From positions 1-22,967 of the IMG/VR virus record IMGVR_UViG_3300036944_000475: 22,967 bases of DNA; one strand, given 5' to 3'. This document shows positions 15,718 through 20,672 of this stretch, piece by piece. How positions within the stretch are numbered: position 1 is the first letter of the stretch; each line of letters opens with the position of its first letter. The stretch is from a virus. The notes below the pieces were generated by a model that ran no database searches, was not told the origin of the DNA, and worked only from the letters and a program-made list of their open reading frames with translations. A program made the translations under genes and the position numbers.

Positions 15718-15736
15718 ACTGATATTTAGTCAAGGC

Positions 15737-15770
15737 GAAGTCCCAGGTGTTTCACAACAGGTGGGACTTC
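15737..15770 (-). repeat. Inverted repeat upstream of terS
   Basis: Nine-base arms GAAGTCCCA (15737-15745) and TGGGACTTC (15762-15770) with a 16-base loop, 20 bases before the small terminase start. No T run follows on either strand, so it is not a clear terminator; it could affect mRNA stability or translation of terS, or be a protein site such as a packaging recognition site. Confidence 0.5.
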
Positions 15771-15787
15771 TATTGATTCCGGCTTGT

Positions 15788-15803
15788 CTGACATCTTTGT
15801 CAG
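15788..15803 (-). repeat. Short perfect hairpin CTGACA/TGTCAG upstream of terS
   Basis: Six-base arms with a 4-base loop (tctt), 18 bases upstream of the larger inverted repeat. Together the two hairpins fill most of the 112-base gap (15718-15829) between the small-gene region and the packaging genes. Function not shown. Confidence 0.4.
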
Positions 15804-15829
15804 TGCGCCTATGCTATACCAAACGTCAA

Positions 15830-15985
15830 CTACTTCTTGTTGTTGACTTGATATTTATAGGGTTCATCTAAGAGTGTTCTACTCAATTGTCGTAATATCT
15901 CATGCCGTTGTAACTGTAGGTCAGCTGTTGAACCTGGAACAATTCTACTACGATGGGTGCTTGGTGGTAACTTGGGTTTATTCAT
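15830..15985 (-). CDS. Small basic protein, 51 aa
   Basis: ATG at 15985, eight bases inside the end of the 83-aa gene, with GAGGA just upstream of the start; stop at 15830. It begins 'MNKPKLPPSTHRSRIVPGST' and is rich in Lys, Arg and Gln. No family recognised. Last member of a run of six overlapping or closely spaced small genes (16809-15830) before the packaging block. Confidence 0.65.
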   Translation of the reverse strand: MNKPKLPPSTHRSRIVPGSTADLQLQRHEILRQLSRTLLDEPYKYQVNNKK

Positions 15986-16229
15986 CTGAATCCTCACGGG
16001 CAATGCGTCTTGCTATTTCACAATGGTCAAACACTTCATTGACCAATTGTTGTTCACTCCAGCCCATCATGTGTAAGTGTACAATACAATTAGTCATGAT
16101 GCTGAATACTATGGATGTCCGTCTTGGATCATGTTCATCCAAGACAGGATGTTCATCAAGTATTTTGAAGAAGATTTCATCACCTTCTTTGATGGCTGTA
16201 TTGATTAGGTTGTCTTCTTTGTCAATCAT
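15978..16229 (-). CDS. Small acidic protein, 83 aa
   Basis: Starts by a four-base overlap (ATGA) with the 37-aa gene, preceded by GAAGAA. Acidic; 'MIDKEDNLINTAIKEGDEIF' leads to 'ILDEHPVLDEHDPRRTSIVF' and a helix 'WSEQQLVNEVFDHCEIARRI'. It looks like a folded helical protein with no membrane segment. Not recognised. Coupling with its neighbours points to co-regulation. Confidence 0.75.
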   Translation of the reverse strand: MIDKEDNLINTAIKEGDEIFFKILDEHPVLDEHDPRRTSIVFSIMTNCIVHLHMMGWSEQQLVNEVFDHCEIARRIAREDSDE

Positions 16230-16339
16230 TCTTCGCCCCGTGCTTCTTCAGGAATGTCTACGCCTGAGCCACCAAACAAGACCACAACGACAAACAAAAC
16301 AGCACAGATGGCCAATAGGTTCCAAAACAAATCTAGCAT
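16226..16339 (-). CDS. Small single-span membrane peptide, 37 aa
   Basis: ATG at 16339 overlaps the stop of the 49-aa gene (TAATG), with AAGGAG upstream. The sequence 'MLDLFWNLLAICAVLFVVVV' gives one hydrophobic segment of about 20 residues, followed by an acidic tail GGSGVDIPEEARGEE. A short phage inner-membrane peptide; possible roles include holin-like function, superinfection exclusion or altering host membrane enzymes, none of which the sequence decides. Confidence 0.7.
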   Translation of the reverse strand: MLDLFWNLLAICAVLFVVVVLFGGSGVDIPEEARGEE

Positions 16340-16488
16340 TATGCTGTCTCCTTAATGTTTAGTGTGTAAAGTTTGCCGTCAATGAGAATGTCCATACCAT
16401 CAATTTCCCAAGTATCAATCTTGTCTGCGTCAAGTTGGCAGTACATGTCATCAATTGCTGACGCAAGGTCAAAAAGTGTGATAGTCAT
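16339..16488 (-). CDS. Small acidic protein, 49 aa
   Basis: ATG at 16488 overlaps the stop of the 20-aa reading frame by one base (TAATG), with AAGGA nearby. It starts 'MTITLFDLASAIDDMYCQLD' and ends in 'DGMDILIDGKLYTLNIKETA', which looks like two strands after a helix. Acidic, no membrane segment. No family recognised; reality supported by ribosome site and coupled starts on both sides. Confidence 0.7.
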   Translation of the reverse strand: MTITLFDLASAIDDMYCQLDADKIDTWEIDGMDILIDGKLYTLNIKETA

Positions 16489-16550
16489 TATGCTGAGTCC
16501 TTGTTTTGTAGTTTAAGCAATTGTTCTACTGTCCAGGTAAAGGCGTCCAT
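16488..16550 (-). CDS. Micro-ORF, 20 aa
   Basis: MDAFTWTVEQLLKLQNKDSA, with AAGGA seven bases before the ATG (16550) and its stop coupled to the start of the 49-aa gene. Could be a true micro-protein or a leader whose translation controls the next gene. Length alone makes it uncertain. Confidence 0.5.
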   Translation of the reverse strand: MDAFTWTVEQLLKLQNKDSA

Positions 16551-16572
16551 TTTAAAGTCCTTGAGTGATGAA

Positions 16573-16809
16573 TTAAGCACGATCCACAGTCCATTCAGGC
16601 AAGTTAAAGTTTTTAAAACGCAACTTGGCTGTGGTTGTGGTGATGTTATAAACAGCGGCAACTTGATTTAAACTTGTAAAGGTGCCGCAAGGAGTAGTAT
16701 ACAAGTAAGGGCGATGAAAGTTGCCTGGTACTGTTGCTACTTTTTGTAATGCTTGGGCAATGTGCTGAGCACTAAAAACTACTAAAGCATTGCTGGGCTG
16801 TTTACGCAT
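16573..16809 (-). CDS. Small protein with a possible DNA-binding HTH (NUMOD/IENR1-like), 78 aa
   Basis: First gene after promoter P1; AGGAG lies before the ATG at 16809. The C-terminal half reads 'TTPCGTFTSLNQVAAVYNIT' then TTTAKLRFKNFNLPEW, close to the pattern 'TP-x-G-x-F-x-S...A-A...I-x-x-x-T...R..N...W' of the small helix-turn-helix module (NUMOD/IENR1 type) found at ends of homing endonucleases and alone in some phage proteins. There is no nuclease domain here. It may bind DNA, perhaps the repeated sites nearby, but that is only inference. Confidence 0.7.
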   Translation of the reverse strand: MRKQPSNALVVFSAQHIAQALQKVATVPGNFHRPYLYTTPCGTFTSLNQVAAVYNITTTTAKLRFKNFNLPEWTVDRA

Positions 16810-16840
16810 TTTAACTCCTGTTTTTGCTGTCTATGTATGT

Positions 16841-16869
16841 ATTATAAGGCCATTTTGGGGTTTGGGCAA
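16841..16869 (-). promoter_or_regulatory. Promoter P1, sigma70 type
   Basis: Minus strand TTGCCC, 17-bp spacer, TATAAT, followed by ACATACATAGACAGCAAAAA. About 30 bases upstream of the 78-aa gene. Shares the -35, spacing, -10 and downstream bases with P2. Confidence 0.85.
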
Positions 16870-16874
16870 CCAAA

Positions 16875-16895
16875 AACCCTACGCAATGTAGGGTT
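16875..16895 (-). terminator. Intrinsic terminator between the 77-aa gene and P1
   Basis: Minus strand stem ACCCTAC / GTAGGGT, loop ATTGC, followed by TTTTTGG. It closes the P2 transcript and lies just upstream of the P1 -35 box. It directly follows the two operator-like inverted repeats. Confidence 0.8.
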
Positions 16896-16912
16896 GTTGT
16901 ATTTTTACAACA
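16895..16912. promoter_or_regulatory. Operator-like inverted repeat O1
   Basis: TGTTGTATTTTTACAACA, a perfect 7-4-7 inverted repeat whose centre is about 69 bases upstream of the likely P1 start. One of four copies of the TGTTGT-N6-(A/G)CAACA family in 1.4 kb. Confidence 0.7.
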
Positions 16913-16930
16913 TGTAAACTTTTGTTTACA
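16913..16930. promoter_or_regulatory. Second inverted repeat directly next to O1
   Basis: TGTAAACTTTTGTTTACA, again 7-4-7 and perfect, same total length and same TTTT centre as O1 but a different arm. It overlaps the stop codon of the 77-aa gene. May be a related or a second regulator's site, or an mRNA end hairpin. Confidence 0.6.
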
Positions 16931-17159
16931 CAGGGTAGTCTGCTGACTTAAATGCTGGCTCAACACCCTCGCAATCAAAAGTCAAAAACGCATCGTGTGC
17001 TTCAGACTTGGTCATTGGTTGGGGTAAACGATACAAAGCAATGCGTGTGTTGCCTGTTGCCAACATTACCCGTCCTCGCACTACAGGATCAGCATTACTG
17101 TAACGCACTGCTGTTCGATTCTTGCGTGTCGATACGCCTACCACTGTGTATGTTTTCAT
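16926..17159 (-). CDS. Small basic protein, 77 aa
   Basis: Start overlaps the stop of the 63-aa gene by four bases (ATGA), so the two are coupled. Begins 'MKTYTVVGVSTRKNRTAVRY', basic with strand-like alternation, then 'RIALYRLPQPMTKSEAHDAF'. No membrane segment. It resembles a compact alpha/beta fold, but no family is recognised. Second gene of the P2 unit; its stop lies in the inverted repeat at 16913-16930. Confidence 0.7.
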   Translation of the reverse strand: MKTYTVVGVSTRKNRTAVRYSNADPVVRGRVMLATGNTRIALYRLPQPMTKSEAHDAFLTFDCEGVEPAFKSADYPV

Positions 17160-17347
17160 TCTGCGTCCTCACGAGCCAACATTGTTAATGTAACTTGTGT
17201 ACGCATAGCACGACGCGATGCCAAGTGCTCAGGCAAACTAAGCAAATCGCATAGAGTTTGTAATTGGTGATCAGACAGTGATTCTAAAAAAGCTTGTTGT
17301 TTAGCATGGCTTAACAAATTTTGCTGTAGCATTGATTGCGGTGACAT
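17156..17347 (-). CDS. Small helical protein, 63 aa
   Basis: First gene of the P2 unit, with GAGGA eight bases before the ATG at 17347. Leucine- and glutamine-rich, 'MSPQSMLQQNLLSHAKQQAF' then LSDHQLQTLCDLLSLPEHLA and a basic stretch SRRAMRT: probably two or three helices. No family recognised. Confidence 0.7.
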   Translation of the reverse strand: MSPQSMLQQNLLSHAKQQAFLESLSDHQLQTLCDLLSLPEHLASRRAMRTQVTLTMLAREDAE

Positions 17348-17372
17348 AAAAGTTTCCTCTGTGTGTTATGAA

Positions 17373-17400
17373 CTGCTTATTTTGCGAAGTGCTTTTTGCT
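17373..17400 (-). repeat. 28-nt leader repeat, copy after P2
   Basis: Identical over 28 bases to 18154-18181. On the minus strand it begins AGCAAAAAGCACTTCGC and lies just after the likely transcription start. One extra base separates it from the -10 box in the P3 copy, so any short reading frame through it differs between copies; the conservation is of DNA or RNA, not of a peptide. Confidence 0.85.
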
Positions 17401-17412
17401 GTCCATGTATCA

Positions 17413-17441
17413 ATTATAGCAAAACAGGTCCAATTGGGCAA
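17413..17441 (-). promoter_or_regulatory. Promoter P2, sigma70 type
   Basis: Minus strand TTGCCC, 17-bp spacer, TATAAT, followed by TGATACATGGACAGC. Drives the 63-aa and 77-aa genes. The TTGCCC and spacing are the same as in P1. Confidence 0.88.
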
Positions 17442-17461
17442 GCAAAAGTTGAGCCTATTTT

Positions 17462-17479
17462 TGTTGTATTTCGACAACA
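17462..17479. promoter_or_regulatory. Operator-like inverted repeat O2
   Basis: TGTTGTATTTCGACAACA, differing from O1 at two central positions; 20 bases upstream of the P2 -35 box, centre about 64 bases before the likely start. Confidence 0.65.
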
Positions 17480-17530
17480 GCGGTAACTTCTATGTTGGTG
17501 GTCACTAACCACTTGGTCTTGGAGGTAAAA

Positions 17531-17552
17531 AAAGCACACTTGCGTGTGCTTT
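17531..17552 (-). terminator. Intrinsic terminator after the 81-aa gene
   Basis: Nine-base stem AAAGCACAC / GTGTGCTTT with a 4-base loop, followed on the minus strand by an uninterrupted run of seven T (counting the last stem bases). Lies 16 bases after the 81-aa stop. Confidence 0.88.
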
Positions 17553-17568
17553 GTTAGTGCTTGCTAAC

Positions 17569-17814
17569 TTAGTTAACAAATTCGATGGCCCAGCCCGTAG
17601 TGTCAGATTTACATGCTTGCGGTGCGTTGGCAAACGGCGCCCAGCGGGGAAACTTTTGATTATAAATGTCGCGTCGAATGCTTTTAAGTTTAGCACGAAC
17701 GCCAGTTTCAGTAGTTTTAACAAACACTTCAACACTGGGGTCTTGTTTTAAGTAAACACGAATAGTTACTGGTACTGTATTACTTAGGTAAATGCTGTCG
17801 GATGTTGTAGACAT
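17569..17814 (-). CDS. Small basic protein, 81 aa
   Basis: AAGGA before the ATG at 17814, in a leader (17815-17840) nearly the same as that before the next upstream gene. Begins 'MSTTSDSIYLSNTVPVTIRV', strand-rich, then a basic helix 'ETGVRAKLKSIRRDIYNQKF' and an aromatic end. Lies between two terminators with no promoter of its own that I can see, so it depends on readthrough from P3. Not recognised. Confidence 0.7.
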   Translation of the reverse strand: MSTTSDSIYLSNTVPVTIRVYLKQDPSVEVFVKTTETGVRAKLKSIRRDIYNQKFPRWAPFANAPQACKSDTTGWAIEFVN

Positions 17815-17841
17815 AATAGATTCCTTAAAAGTTTAAAATAA

Positions 17842-17869
17842 ACAAAGCACATATTGCTATATGCTTTGT
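17842..17869 (-). terminator. Probable intrinsic terminator or attenuator between the 77-aa and 81-aa genes
   Basis: Stem ACAAAGCA / TGCTTTGT (8 bp) with a short inner pairing, followed by TTATTTT on the minus strand. No promoter is seen between it and the 81-aa gene, so it is likely leaky. Confidence 0.65.
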
Positions 17870-17873
17870 TATT

Positions 17874-17894
17874 GATTAATGATTAATGATTAAT
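17874..17894. repeat. Three tandem copies of GATTAAT
   Basis: Exact heptamer repeated three times, overlapping the stop of the 77-aa gene at 17890. Likely simple replication slippage; function unknown. Confidence 0.6.
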
Positions 17895-18123
17895 TAGACA
17901 TTGCTTTATAAAATGCTTTAAAAGCATTATCGCTGTTTAAGTTAATGAGATTAACAACGTCGTCGGCGGCAGCACTACATGTAGTTGTTGCTATTAGATT
18001 ATCGGATCCGCAAATATGTTGGTCCTCAACAACAAAACTATATTGTATAGTATTGTTAATATCGCGTTCGACAAAAAGCATATTAACTTTAGTAGTTGCG
18101 TTTGTGTTAGTAATTACTGACAT
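17890..18123 (-). CDS. Small protein, 77 aa, first gene after P3
   Basis: AAGGA before the ATG at 18123. Begins 'MSVITNTNATTKVNMLFVER', then strands 'NTIQYSFVVEDQHICGSDN' and a C-terminal helix 'LINLNSDNAFKAFYKAMSN'. Local base composition is more AT-rich than the structural genes. No clear likeness to the 81-aa protein although their leaders match. No family recognised. Confidence 0.7.
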   Translation of the reverse strand: MSVITNTNATTKVNMLFVERDINNTIQYSFVVEDQHICGSDNLIATTTCSAAADDVVNLINLNSDNAFKAFYKAMSN

Positions 18124-18153
18124 AATGATTCCTTAAAAGTTTAAAAATATGGA

Positions 18154-18181
18154 CTGCTTATTTTGCGAAGTGCTTTTTGCT
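18154..18181 (-). repeat. 28-nt leader repeat, copy after P3
   Basis: Exact copy of 17373-17400, in the same position after the promoter. After it, the leader goes on with TTTTTAAACTTTTAAGGAATC, also nearly repeated before the 81-aa gene. Confidence 0.85.
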
Positions 18182-18194
18182 GGTCCATGTATTG

Positions 18195-18223
18195 ATTATA
18201 CACAAACTGGGCCTAGAGGTCTG
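18195..18223 (-). promoter_or_regulatory. Promoter P3, TATAAT with poor -35
   Basis: TATAAT (18195-18200) with the same downstream bases as P2 (ATACATGGAC). At 17-bp spacing the -35 position is CAGACC, a poor match, so it may need an activator; it is also the one with two operator-like sites upstream. Confidence 0.7.
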
Positions 18224-18253
18224 TCGTTTTTATGCCCAAAATCAAAATATTTT

Positions 18254-18271
18254 TGTTGTATTTTAGCAACA
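18254..18271. promoter_or_regulatory. Operator-like inverted repeat O3
   Basis: TGTTGTATTTTAGCAACA, two changes from O1. Centre about 74 bases before the likely P3 start. Confidence 0.6.
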
Positions 18272-18277
18272 AGTTGA

Positions 18278-18295
18278 TGTTGTAATAAAACAACA
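18278..18295. promoter_or_regulatory. Operator-like inverted repeat O4
   Basis: TGTTGTAATAAAACAACA; with flanking bases the arms are ATGTTGT / ACAACAT. 24 bp centre to centre from O3. Confidence 0.6.
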
Positions 18296-18319
18296 TGTTT
18301 TTAAGCCAAAAACCGCAAA

Positions 18320-18335
18320 ATACCCCCGGGGGTAT
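18320..18335 (-). terminator. GC-rich 16-base palindrome with T-rich flank, possible terminator
   Basis: ATACCCCCGGGGGTAT, perfect palindrome, followed on the minus strand by TTTGCGGTTTTTGG. Could end transcripts from the 86-aa gene or be a protein site. Striking in AT-rich surroundings. Confidence 0.45.
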
Positions 18336-18351
18336 GTGGTGCGTCAAAGGT

Positions 18352-18383
18352 GAAGCCCAGTACTCGAGAAAATACTGGGCTTC
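18352..18383 (-). repeat. Strong 11-bp hairpin
   Basis: Arms GAAGCCCAGTA (18352-18362) and TACTGGGCTTC (18373-18383), 10-base loop holding CTCGAG. No T run on either strand, so it is more likely an RNA structural element than a terminator alone. Confidence 0.65.
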
Positions 18384-18391
18384 GGGGAGGC

Positions 18392-18419
18392 GGGAAGTCA
18401 AATGGCTGTAAAACTTCCC
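18392..18419 (-). repeat. 7-bp hairpin next to the strong hairpin
   Basis: Arms GGGAAGT (18392-18398) and ACTTCCC (18413-18419). With the next two structures it forms a series of three over about 100 bases. Confidence 0.5.
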
Positions 18420-18473
18420 AATAACATCAAACGGTCCCAAGGGTAATAAAACTGTTTGTGTTGCTTTTATTTA

Positions 18474-18983: not shown

Positions 18984-20672
18984 TTACGCAGTCCAGTGCC
19001 ACTCCCAAATACCTCTATCATTTAGAGCACCATAGCGTGTTTCGTCACCATCAAGCGTTTTCCATTCTAAATCTTTGTGACGCCAAACAGTTCTTTGTAT
19101 CTCTTCTAAACCATTTTTAATGTTTGCTCTATCCTTGTATTCAACAGCCCAGCCACGATCCCGGATCAAGCGTTCAATTTCCTGACGCATACGATTCTTA
19201 CCTGGAAGCATTTCCCCACGGTTAATATGACGGATCAGATCTACCAACAACTGTGCTCTAATGTATTTGAACTTTGGATCCTCAAACACTTGCTCAACAG
19301 TTTGCGTCCAAGCACCTCGTTGCGTGTCCACAATGCGACGATACTCATCACTGTGATGTGGCTCAACGTGCGTTATGTCCCCATACTTGACTGCCATGGC
19401 ACAAATCCATTTGCCCACTTCATACTCATCGTGTAGGATGTTTTGCCCAGAATCAAAACTGTGTCCTTCAATCCACTGTTTGATAGCAGTTTCACTCAAG
19501 TCCTCAAACTCTTCTAGCCCTGTCATGTGTCTAGTACAAGCAGAATAAATGCTTTCAGTTACATTAAAAAAGCTGAAACGGTTATCACTTTTAGTGCCGC
19601 CCACATTTACACCACCATTGATGTCGTTTGTAACAAACATCACCAAGCCAGTGTTGTCAGCATAGTAAATGTCCATGCCCTTGGGCTCCACTGGGATTTT
19701 GGGACTACCTAAAAATGCCTTGGTGCGTTCACTGTCAATTTTACTGCGATTGGTTTCATTAACAATAATCATTGCCTTACCAGCAATAACACTGTTAAAC
19801 TTGCCAATCACATGGTCAATGTTACAGTTGTCAGCAATGTTGCCATTAAACAAGCGTCGCAAGAAACGATTGCTAAACAAACCCTTACCACCACGACCCA
19901 CAACATCGCATATCACAATGTTGGGAATGTAAATGTTTTCAGGATGTAAGTATTTTGCCCAAATAATTCGTTGTAGTGCTTCAAACTCTTTTGAACCCGC
20001 CAAGCCACCACTTAGGCTTTCAAACACAGCGTCAAACATCCAATGGTAATCTGTGGCACCATCATCAGCAGGAGCACTGAATGTTTTATTCATCAAGTTC
20101 AGCGCACCAGGCTCATCCACATAACTTTGAATAATCTTAGTAAAGCGGCGTCCTTGCTCAACCAGTTTGGTGTTGAACTCTTTTAGACTTTTGTAATCCT
20201 CTACGCCATCGCCACCACGTATGGTCACATCCAACTGTGGGAAACTCGACATTAGTGTTTCTTTCTTGATGGCAACCCACTCACGCACACCATACACATT
20301 GGGCATGGGCAGTTGATAATACCATACTGCTGAACCCGATGCTTTGATGTGAAAGTTGTAGGTTGTAATTAAACTTTTGATATTCATTTCAGCATCAGCT
20401 GTTTGCTGTGCCTTTTGAATTTTGCTTTGTGTGCGGCGGATATCATTTAGCACACTTTTGACGCCTTGTTGATTTTGCCAACCTGGATCACCGCGTTCAA
20501 CTACTTCAACCAGTTTGTCTAATCTACCTCGTTGGGCATCACTCGCTGTGCTTTTTCTAATGTTCAAGATGCTGATGACTTCTTTACGCAGTTCCAATTC
20601 CTTTACCAATTCATCAGCACTGTCCATAACATCTTGATCAAGTATCATATCATCAATTTCAGTTTCATTCAT
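18984..20672 (-). CDS. SF3 helicase / D5-like NTPase (DUF5906-like)
   Basis: 562 residues; ATG with AAGGA upstream, overlapping the primase gene by four bases. C-terminal motor domain: P-loop 'VICDVVGRGGKGLF' at about 253-266, where GKG replaces the usual GK(S/T), as often in DUF5906 proteins; Walker B-like 'KAMIIVNET' at 299-307 with NE; motif C 'LVMFVTND' at 343-350 with sensor Asn; an Arg in 'KSDNRFSFF' near 365. The N-terminal 100 residues are helical and charged. These ATPases unwind DNA at phage origins, working with a primase, here encoded just upstream. The primase and helicase are separate proteins, whereas in many phages they are fused. Confidence 0.85.
   Translation of the reverse strand: MNETEIDDMILDQDVMDSADELVKELELRKEVISILNIRKSTASDAQRGRLDKLVEVVERGDPGWQNQQGVKSVLNDIRRTQSKIQKAQQTADAEMNIKSLITTYNFHIKASGSAVWYYQLPMPNVYGVREWVAIKKETLMSSFPQLDVTIRGGDGVEDYKSLKEFNTKLVEQGRRFTKIIQSYVDEPGALNLMNKTFSAPADDGATDYHWMFDAVFESLSGGLAGSKEFEALQRIIWAKYLHPENIYIPNIVICDVVGRGGKGLFSNRFLRRLFNGNIADNCNIDHVIGKFNSVIAGKAMIIVNETNRSKIDSERTKAFLGSPKIPVEPKGMDIYYADNTGLVMFVTNDINGGVNVGGTKSDNRFSFFNVTESIYSACTRHMTGLEEFEDLSETAIKQWIEGHSFDSGQNILHDEYEVGKWICAMAVKYGDITHVEPHHSDEYRRIVDTQRGAWTQTVEQVFEDPKFKYIRAQLLVDLIRHINRGEMLPGKNRMRQEIERLIRDRGWAVEYKDRANIKNGLEEIQRTVWRHKDLEWKTLDGDETRYGALNDRGIWEWHWTA

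Follow-up and report, generated by a model that had tools for sequence, protein, structure and literature searches.

An inverted repeat (IR) of the form TGTTGT-N6-RCAACA stands upstream of the promoters of small phage genes at distances that follow the turn of the DNA helix, and it is shared between phages and relocated within them together with these promoters. Judged from the letters of the DNA, the IR is a signal across many unrelated environmental phages and is not special to the phage in which it was noticed. The best explanation is probably that a class I-like activator site is combined with mobile cassettes. The stretch of DNA analysed, here called the window, is a virus record of 22,967 bases whose main genes lie on the - strand.

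Inverted Repeats and Promoters of the Window

A pattern scan of the whole window found TGTTGT-N6-RCAACA exactly at 16895, 17462, 18254 and 18278 (Table 1), and all four copies sit in gaps that separate predicted small genes on the - strand. The exact IR gave 7 strand-hits in the whole window vs. 0.05 expected, and none of 100 shuffles reached 7; when up to two mismatches were allowed, the window scan gave 27 matches vs. 11.5 expected. Thus, the four intergenic palindromes described in the initial annotation are borne out, and their occurrence is not random. On the transcribed strand, three of the four copies have an A-rich spacer (NNAAAT); the spacer is therefore non-random and the element is an asymmetric dyad, for which the reading of relatives gives the consensus GTTGY-NN-AAAW-ACAAC on the promoter strand. 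No match to Rfam was obtained within the window.

Every IR of the window stands upstream of a sigma70-like promoter. The initial annotation had also described TATAAT in three promoters, TTGCCC at 17 bp in P1 and P2, and a poor -35 box with two IRs at P3, and all of this is found as described. The boxes of P3 are TATAAT at 18200..18195 and CAGACC at 18223..18218. The distance from the core palindrome to the -35 box is 21 bp in P2, 26 bp in P1 and, as read from the sequence, 31 bp in P3. The leaders of P2 and P3 have 35 nt in common with 97% identity. More than 100 other viral contigs also have the start of this leader, TATAATNNATACATNGAC(A)GC, frequently with a small hairpin of its own. Terminator-like hairpins adjoin P1 and P2; they are fused to the -35 box in some relatives and are absent from most copies. 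In the loci L173, L181, L194, L204 and similar ones, a terminator-like hairpin (CCCTGTCAA...TTGACAGGG-T-run) uses the -35 box as its 3' arm, forming a fused terminator-promoter.

Table 1. Positions of the IRs, promoters, leaders, terminator-like hairpins and small genes in the window; IR sequences are those of the - strand.
Feature	Position	Strand	Remark
Accessory insert holding all four IRs, between the 152-aa and 86-aa genes	15718..18473	-	junction short in most relatives
78-aa orphan gene behind P1	16573..16809	-	
P1 promoter, TTGCCC-17-TATAAT	16841..16869	-	
Terminator-like hairpin, IR-P1 interval	16875..16895	-	same order in L150 and L331
IR of P1, TGTTGTAAAAATACAACA	16895..16912	-	exact match; 48 bp to -10
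77-aa gene, P2 unit, in wide family of small phage proteins	16926..17159	-	
63-aa gene, first behind P2	17156..17347	-	relative in sister phage L331
P2 leader, weak 5' stem-loop, common to P3	17367..17408	-	fold -7.3 kcal/mol, z -1.4
P2 promoter, TTGCCC-17-TATAAT	17413..17441	-	
IR of P2, TGTTGTCGAAATACAACA	17462..17479	-	exact match; 43 bp to -10, main peak
Terminator-like hairpin after 81-aa gene, upstream of P2 IR	17531..17552	-	kept in L150
81-aa gene, P3 unit	17569..17814	-	relatives in L149, L150, L151
Terminator-like hairpin between 77-aa (17890) and 81-aa genes	17841..17870	-	
77-aa gene, first behind P3	17890..18123	-	
P3 leader, weak 5' stem-loop, common to P2	18148..18190	-	fold -8.5 kcal/mol, z -1.0
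P3 promoter, CAGACC-17-TATAAT, poor -35	18195..18223	-	read from sequence; shared -10 and leader
Near IR of P3, TGTTGCTAAAATACAACA	18254..18271	-	exact match; 53 bp to -10
Far IR of P3, TGTTGTTTTATTACAACA; spacer T-rich there	18278..18295	-	exact match

Specificity and Spread among Phages

Computation shows the IR to be real and specific, and its spread to be phage-specific. In a pattern scan of IMG/VR, the IR followed by TATAAT at 36–60 bp was found in at least 120 viral contigs vs. 15 matches for a control with permuted arms, 0 of which had a TTGAC promoter. The IR is enriched in viral contigs over this control. The pattern of IR and TATAAT gave 44 matches in 84,980 bacterial/archaeal species, nearly all of them background. 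In loci whose retrieval did not depend on the IR, GTTGT-N6-ACAAC had 42 matches, while other spacer lengths had 0–10 and permuted arms 0. Furthermore, 329 independent promoters in such IR-unselected loci yielded 25 sites with at most three mismatches vs. 4 for a reversed control, and in these 25 sites the two arms of the IR, GTTG at positions 1–4 and CAAC at positions 13–16, hardly vary. At the level of whole phage records, 38 of 50 carry the IR, with up to 10 copies each (control hits, 2 in total), and 3 of these 38 are T4-like by gp23. The IR was not found in phage DSL-LC06, and Methylophilales phage Melnitz has palindromes only without the A-rich spacer.

A host regulon was considered as another source of the element and rejected. 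In 300 genomes of one order (around a Methylotenera MAG), there were 27 matches vs. 1 for the control, and none of 12 contexts held TTGAC-TATAAT; in about 197 genomes from the order of a Pelagibacteraceae genome, 13 genomes had single hits. The genome-wide scan gave background, one phage-like contig in a MAG and one Thiodubiliella repeat family. Within this repeat family of the symbiont Thiodubiliella endoseptemdiera, GTTGTAAAAATACAACA is followed by a conserved block and TATAAT (L270, L272, L281, L288, L305, L311). An intergenic block with GTTGTAAAAATACAACA, without a TTGAC promoter, is common to two genomes of one bacterial order (L347, L348).

Spacing between the Repeat and the Promoter

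The distance from the IR to the -10 box was taken from 147 promoter-bearing, de-duplicated viral copies among the matches listed of two scans. The first analysis already pointed to the nearer peak, which the second scan was then made to test. Among the matches listed, the distance is 31–34 bp in 54 copies and 41–44 bp in 43, peak heights that are not comparable, the two scans overlapping at 36–42 bp and each covering the matches listed; it is 35–40 bp in 8 copies, 20–30 bp in 13 and 45–62 bp in 29. Thus, 97 of the 147 copies among the matches listed fall in two 4-bp intervals one helical turn apart, with dyad centres at about -53.5 and -63.5. The flanks (IR to -35, promoter spacer, and upstream of the IR) are 27–40% identical vs. 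26% by chance, and because they are so near to chance identity, the spacing pattern does not come from shared ancestry. Two peaks one helical turn apart are as expected of a protein that touches RNA polymerase from upstream (class I).

Of the window's own promoters, P2 (43 bp) keeps the main phase and the near site of P3 (53 bp) is one turn further. P1 (48 bp) is half a turn off phase, with a terminator in between. This arrangement of P1 also occurs in L150 and L331 and is therefore not an accident; the off-phase minority among the matches listed lies at 48–49 and 57–58 bp. P1 and this minority of copies speak against the class I reading. The upstream class I site on like promoters, as proposed in the initial annotation, is strongly supported by the helix-turn-quantised spacing of about 147 copies among the matches listed, with the exception of P1, which stands half a turn off.

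Each IR would be a putative site for a dimeric, sequence-specific DNA-binding protein. From one face of the helix, at about 53 or 63 bp before the start, the bound protein would touch the polymerase, probably at the alpha C-terminal domain, and would help the host RNA polymerase (sigma70-type) start at the adjacent downstream promoter in a class I manner. The class I reading is favoured because of the turn-quantised spacing with near-chance flanks, the nearly invariant arms, the viral enrichment with near absence before promoters of genome contigs, the preference for N6, the lack of stem pairing at positions 5/12, the sharing and relocation of the cassette and the matching turn-by-turn profile of CRP. 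Binding of the protein, activation, the contact with the alpha C-terminal domain and a phage-encoded or phage-dedicated origin of the protein are what we infer from these features. Many IR promoters come close to the consensus and might do without an activator.

Such near-consensus promoters would suit a need for repression, and an IR that is the operator of a repressor or looping regulator could hold strong promoters off for part of the infection. The two IRs of P3, 24 bp apart, and the regulator-type dyad would agree with this alternative. It is nevertheless unlikely, since the preferred positions of the IR do not overlap the core promoter (the IR ends 9–35 bp before the -35 box in most copies, with no overlap with -35), the turn-spaced peaks resemble class I activation and most units have one IR. 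It is also improbable that no regulator is involved and that the central A-tract, with the A-rich tract behind it, is a UP-like element for the alpha C-terminal domain or a Fis-type nucleoid protein. In this case the near-invariant GTTG and CAAC arms would be needless, as A-tract or curvature effects do not call for them, and the IR was not seen before promoters of bacterial genomes, although three features would fit: a central A-tract near -53 and -63, positions that differ by one turn; a spacer whose A-rich side belongs to the promoter strand in 125 of 152 cases; and an A-rich stretch that often comes after the IR.

A class I-like activator site can be compared with CRP, whose class I sites lie at -61.5/-71.5/-81.5 with a turn-by-turn profile (PMC6301791). 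The likeness to class I sigma70 promoters consists of a dyad upstream of the -35 box, in positions about one helical turn apart that thin out with distance. Unlike these, the IR has another recognition sequence and centres near -53.5 and -63.5, precedes small genes of phages, spreads with cassettes and has a putative binding protein. At lac, CRP acts from a position a few bp farther upstream than the IR, and the two geometries are thus not quite the same.

The Repeat as DNA or as RNA

An IR that acts as RNA would be the 3' hairpin of the upstream transcript (terminator or stability element), placed before the next promoter by chance. Some features would fit: the IR of P1 can fold together with its terminator (z -3.85), many IR copies overlap or abut the upstream stop codon, and a minority extend into T-run hairpins, so that part of the IR set may double as terminators. 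However, at the inner pair of the IR (positions 5/12) C-A is nearly as frequent as T-A in unselected loci, which argues that an RNA stem is not maintained. Most copies are followed by an A-run, not a T-run, IRs occur in none of 33 convergent gaps vs. 9 IRs in divergent ones (small numbers), and the distance to the downstream promoter is turn-quantised, which makes the action as RNA very unlikely. The more specific candidate, an intrinsic terminator with a GC-rich stem and a T-run, was rejected, as the stem of the IR is AT-rich and an A-run follows most copies. At P1 and in several relatives, a GC-rich terminator separate from the IR adjoins it.

Accessory Insert and Mobile Cassettes

The four IRs of the window belong to an insert that its nearest relatives by terminase do not have. 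These relatives are 24 contigs with 58–89% identity, and in most of those showing both neighbours the gap between the 86-aa and 152-aa genes is about 230–600 bp (about 1.8 kb in one) vs. about 2.8 kb here. None of the 24 contigs encodes the small genes of the insert and the IR was found in none of them; the IR is missing there because the insert is missing. Therefore, conservation of the motif in related phages, which the initial annotation had looked to, fails in these 24 contigs together with the insert itself.

The cassettes are found in other phages and at other places. The sister phage G046 (terminase and portal 83%, capsid 80%) has a junction of 320 bp between the 86-aa and 152-aa genes, and carries its cassettes elsewhere, after the tail genes. 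One is P1-like (78% over 94 bp) and one P2-like (72% over 125 bp), and they come with relatives of the 77-aa and 63-aa genes. Phage G049, with different portal and head families, has the P2 cassette (74% over 175 bp, E 5e-25) and also relatives of the 77-aa and 81-aa genes. Since G046 and G049 have the cassettes in common at other places, IR, promoter, leader and small genes move together as cassettes, and sharing as well as relocation are results of computation. The proposal of a regulon confined to one phage thus had to be given up: unrelated phages share the element, and the copies of the window are an accessory insert without counterpart in the terminase relatives. Such a regulatory cassette would be made up of IR, promoter, leader and one or more small genes, in many cases also a terminator, and would pass between unrelated phages; the window phage would hold three such promoter units in its accessory insert.

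Cassettes common to unrelated phages and relocated, together with the 35-nt common leader of P2 and P3, could also mean that the IR has no role in transcription and chiefly serves as a tag for recombination or homology. A tag would neither keep 16 bp alone amid near-chance flanks nor impose a helical spacing, and this explanation is the most improbable of those considered.

The PeSL cassettes of T4-type phages, with which the names Arbiol 2010 and Comeau 2014 are connected, reportedly consist of a sigma70-like promoter and a stem-loop/terminator between small nonessential genes and are shuffled among phages. The cassettes described here are likewise repeated between small genes, relocated and shared between phages, and in part of the copies a strong sigma70-like promoter adjoins a stem-loop/terminator. 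The stem-loops of PeSL are reportedly terminators, whereas here a separate dyad of fixed letters stands at a helix-phased distance, and the IR occurs also in phages that are not T4-like. The IR itself is probably not an effective terminator, since an A-run comes after most copies and only a minority look like terminators. Among known kinds, class I activator promoters and PeSL cassettes come closest, and the IR would be a putative member of either.

The usual view is that early genes of phages rely on bare host promoters. A dyad that stands at a helix-turn-exact distance from such promoters in many unrelated environmental phages, and was not found before promoters of sequenced bacterial genomes, implies that the small genes of phages have an upstream regulator in common, of which no earlier description was found in the literature searched; no paper with the exact motif strings was found there either. 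It is possible, and we hold it tentatively, that the early small-gene promoters of unrelated tailed phages (T4-like jumbo phages, small long-tailed phages and others) answer to an undescribed activator, encoded by or dedicated to phages and having one recognition sequence, and that this regulon spread as promoter cassettes. The 16-mer is a probe to fish for the protein, and in phage contigs it marks where mobile small-gene cassettes have their promoters and boundaries.

Candidate Binding Proteins and Small Genes

The FNR/FixK-type box is TTGAT-N4-ATCAA. Its TTG-N8-CAA geometry is like that of the IR, but its inner letters are A/T vs. Y/A in the IR. A phage regulator of the CRP/FNR type was rejected, as the corresponding HTH (PF13545) is present in none of the 50 phage records; a protein of this type that binds the IR may be host-encoded. 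Among the 50 records, the small winged-helix family HTH_39 is present in 11 of the 38 that carry the IR and in 0 of the 12 that do not, an association across sequence records that is suggestive only.

The 78-aa protein, which the initial annotation had named for a gel shift, was rejected as IR binder; it is an orphan without relatives, its single-sequence model is not usable and no link to the IR emerged. The family of the 77-aa protein (16926-17159) was also rejected as IR regulator, since the IR is directly upstream in only 3 of 17 unselected members and the model has no match among solved structures. The predicted fold of this protein is beta-beta-alpha-beta-alpha (pLDDT 95), and many members have a Lys/Ala-rich tail. 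The family comprises 42 viral loci, with matches solely from uncultured phages, and is the most shared protein in the 13 phages compared. Isolated phages gave no relatives of the 81-aa or 77-aa proteins, and short-query BLAST against them returned noise only. In general, the genes behind IR promoters are short (median 93 vs. 139 aa).

Outside the insert, the window encodes a 562-aa DUF5906/primase-like protein (18984-20672, - strand), which is 22–25% identical or undetected in phages with 74–89% identical terminase. Such poor conservation despite similar terminases suggests a replacement of the replication module.
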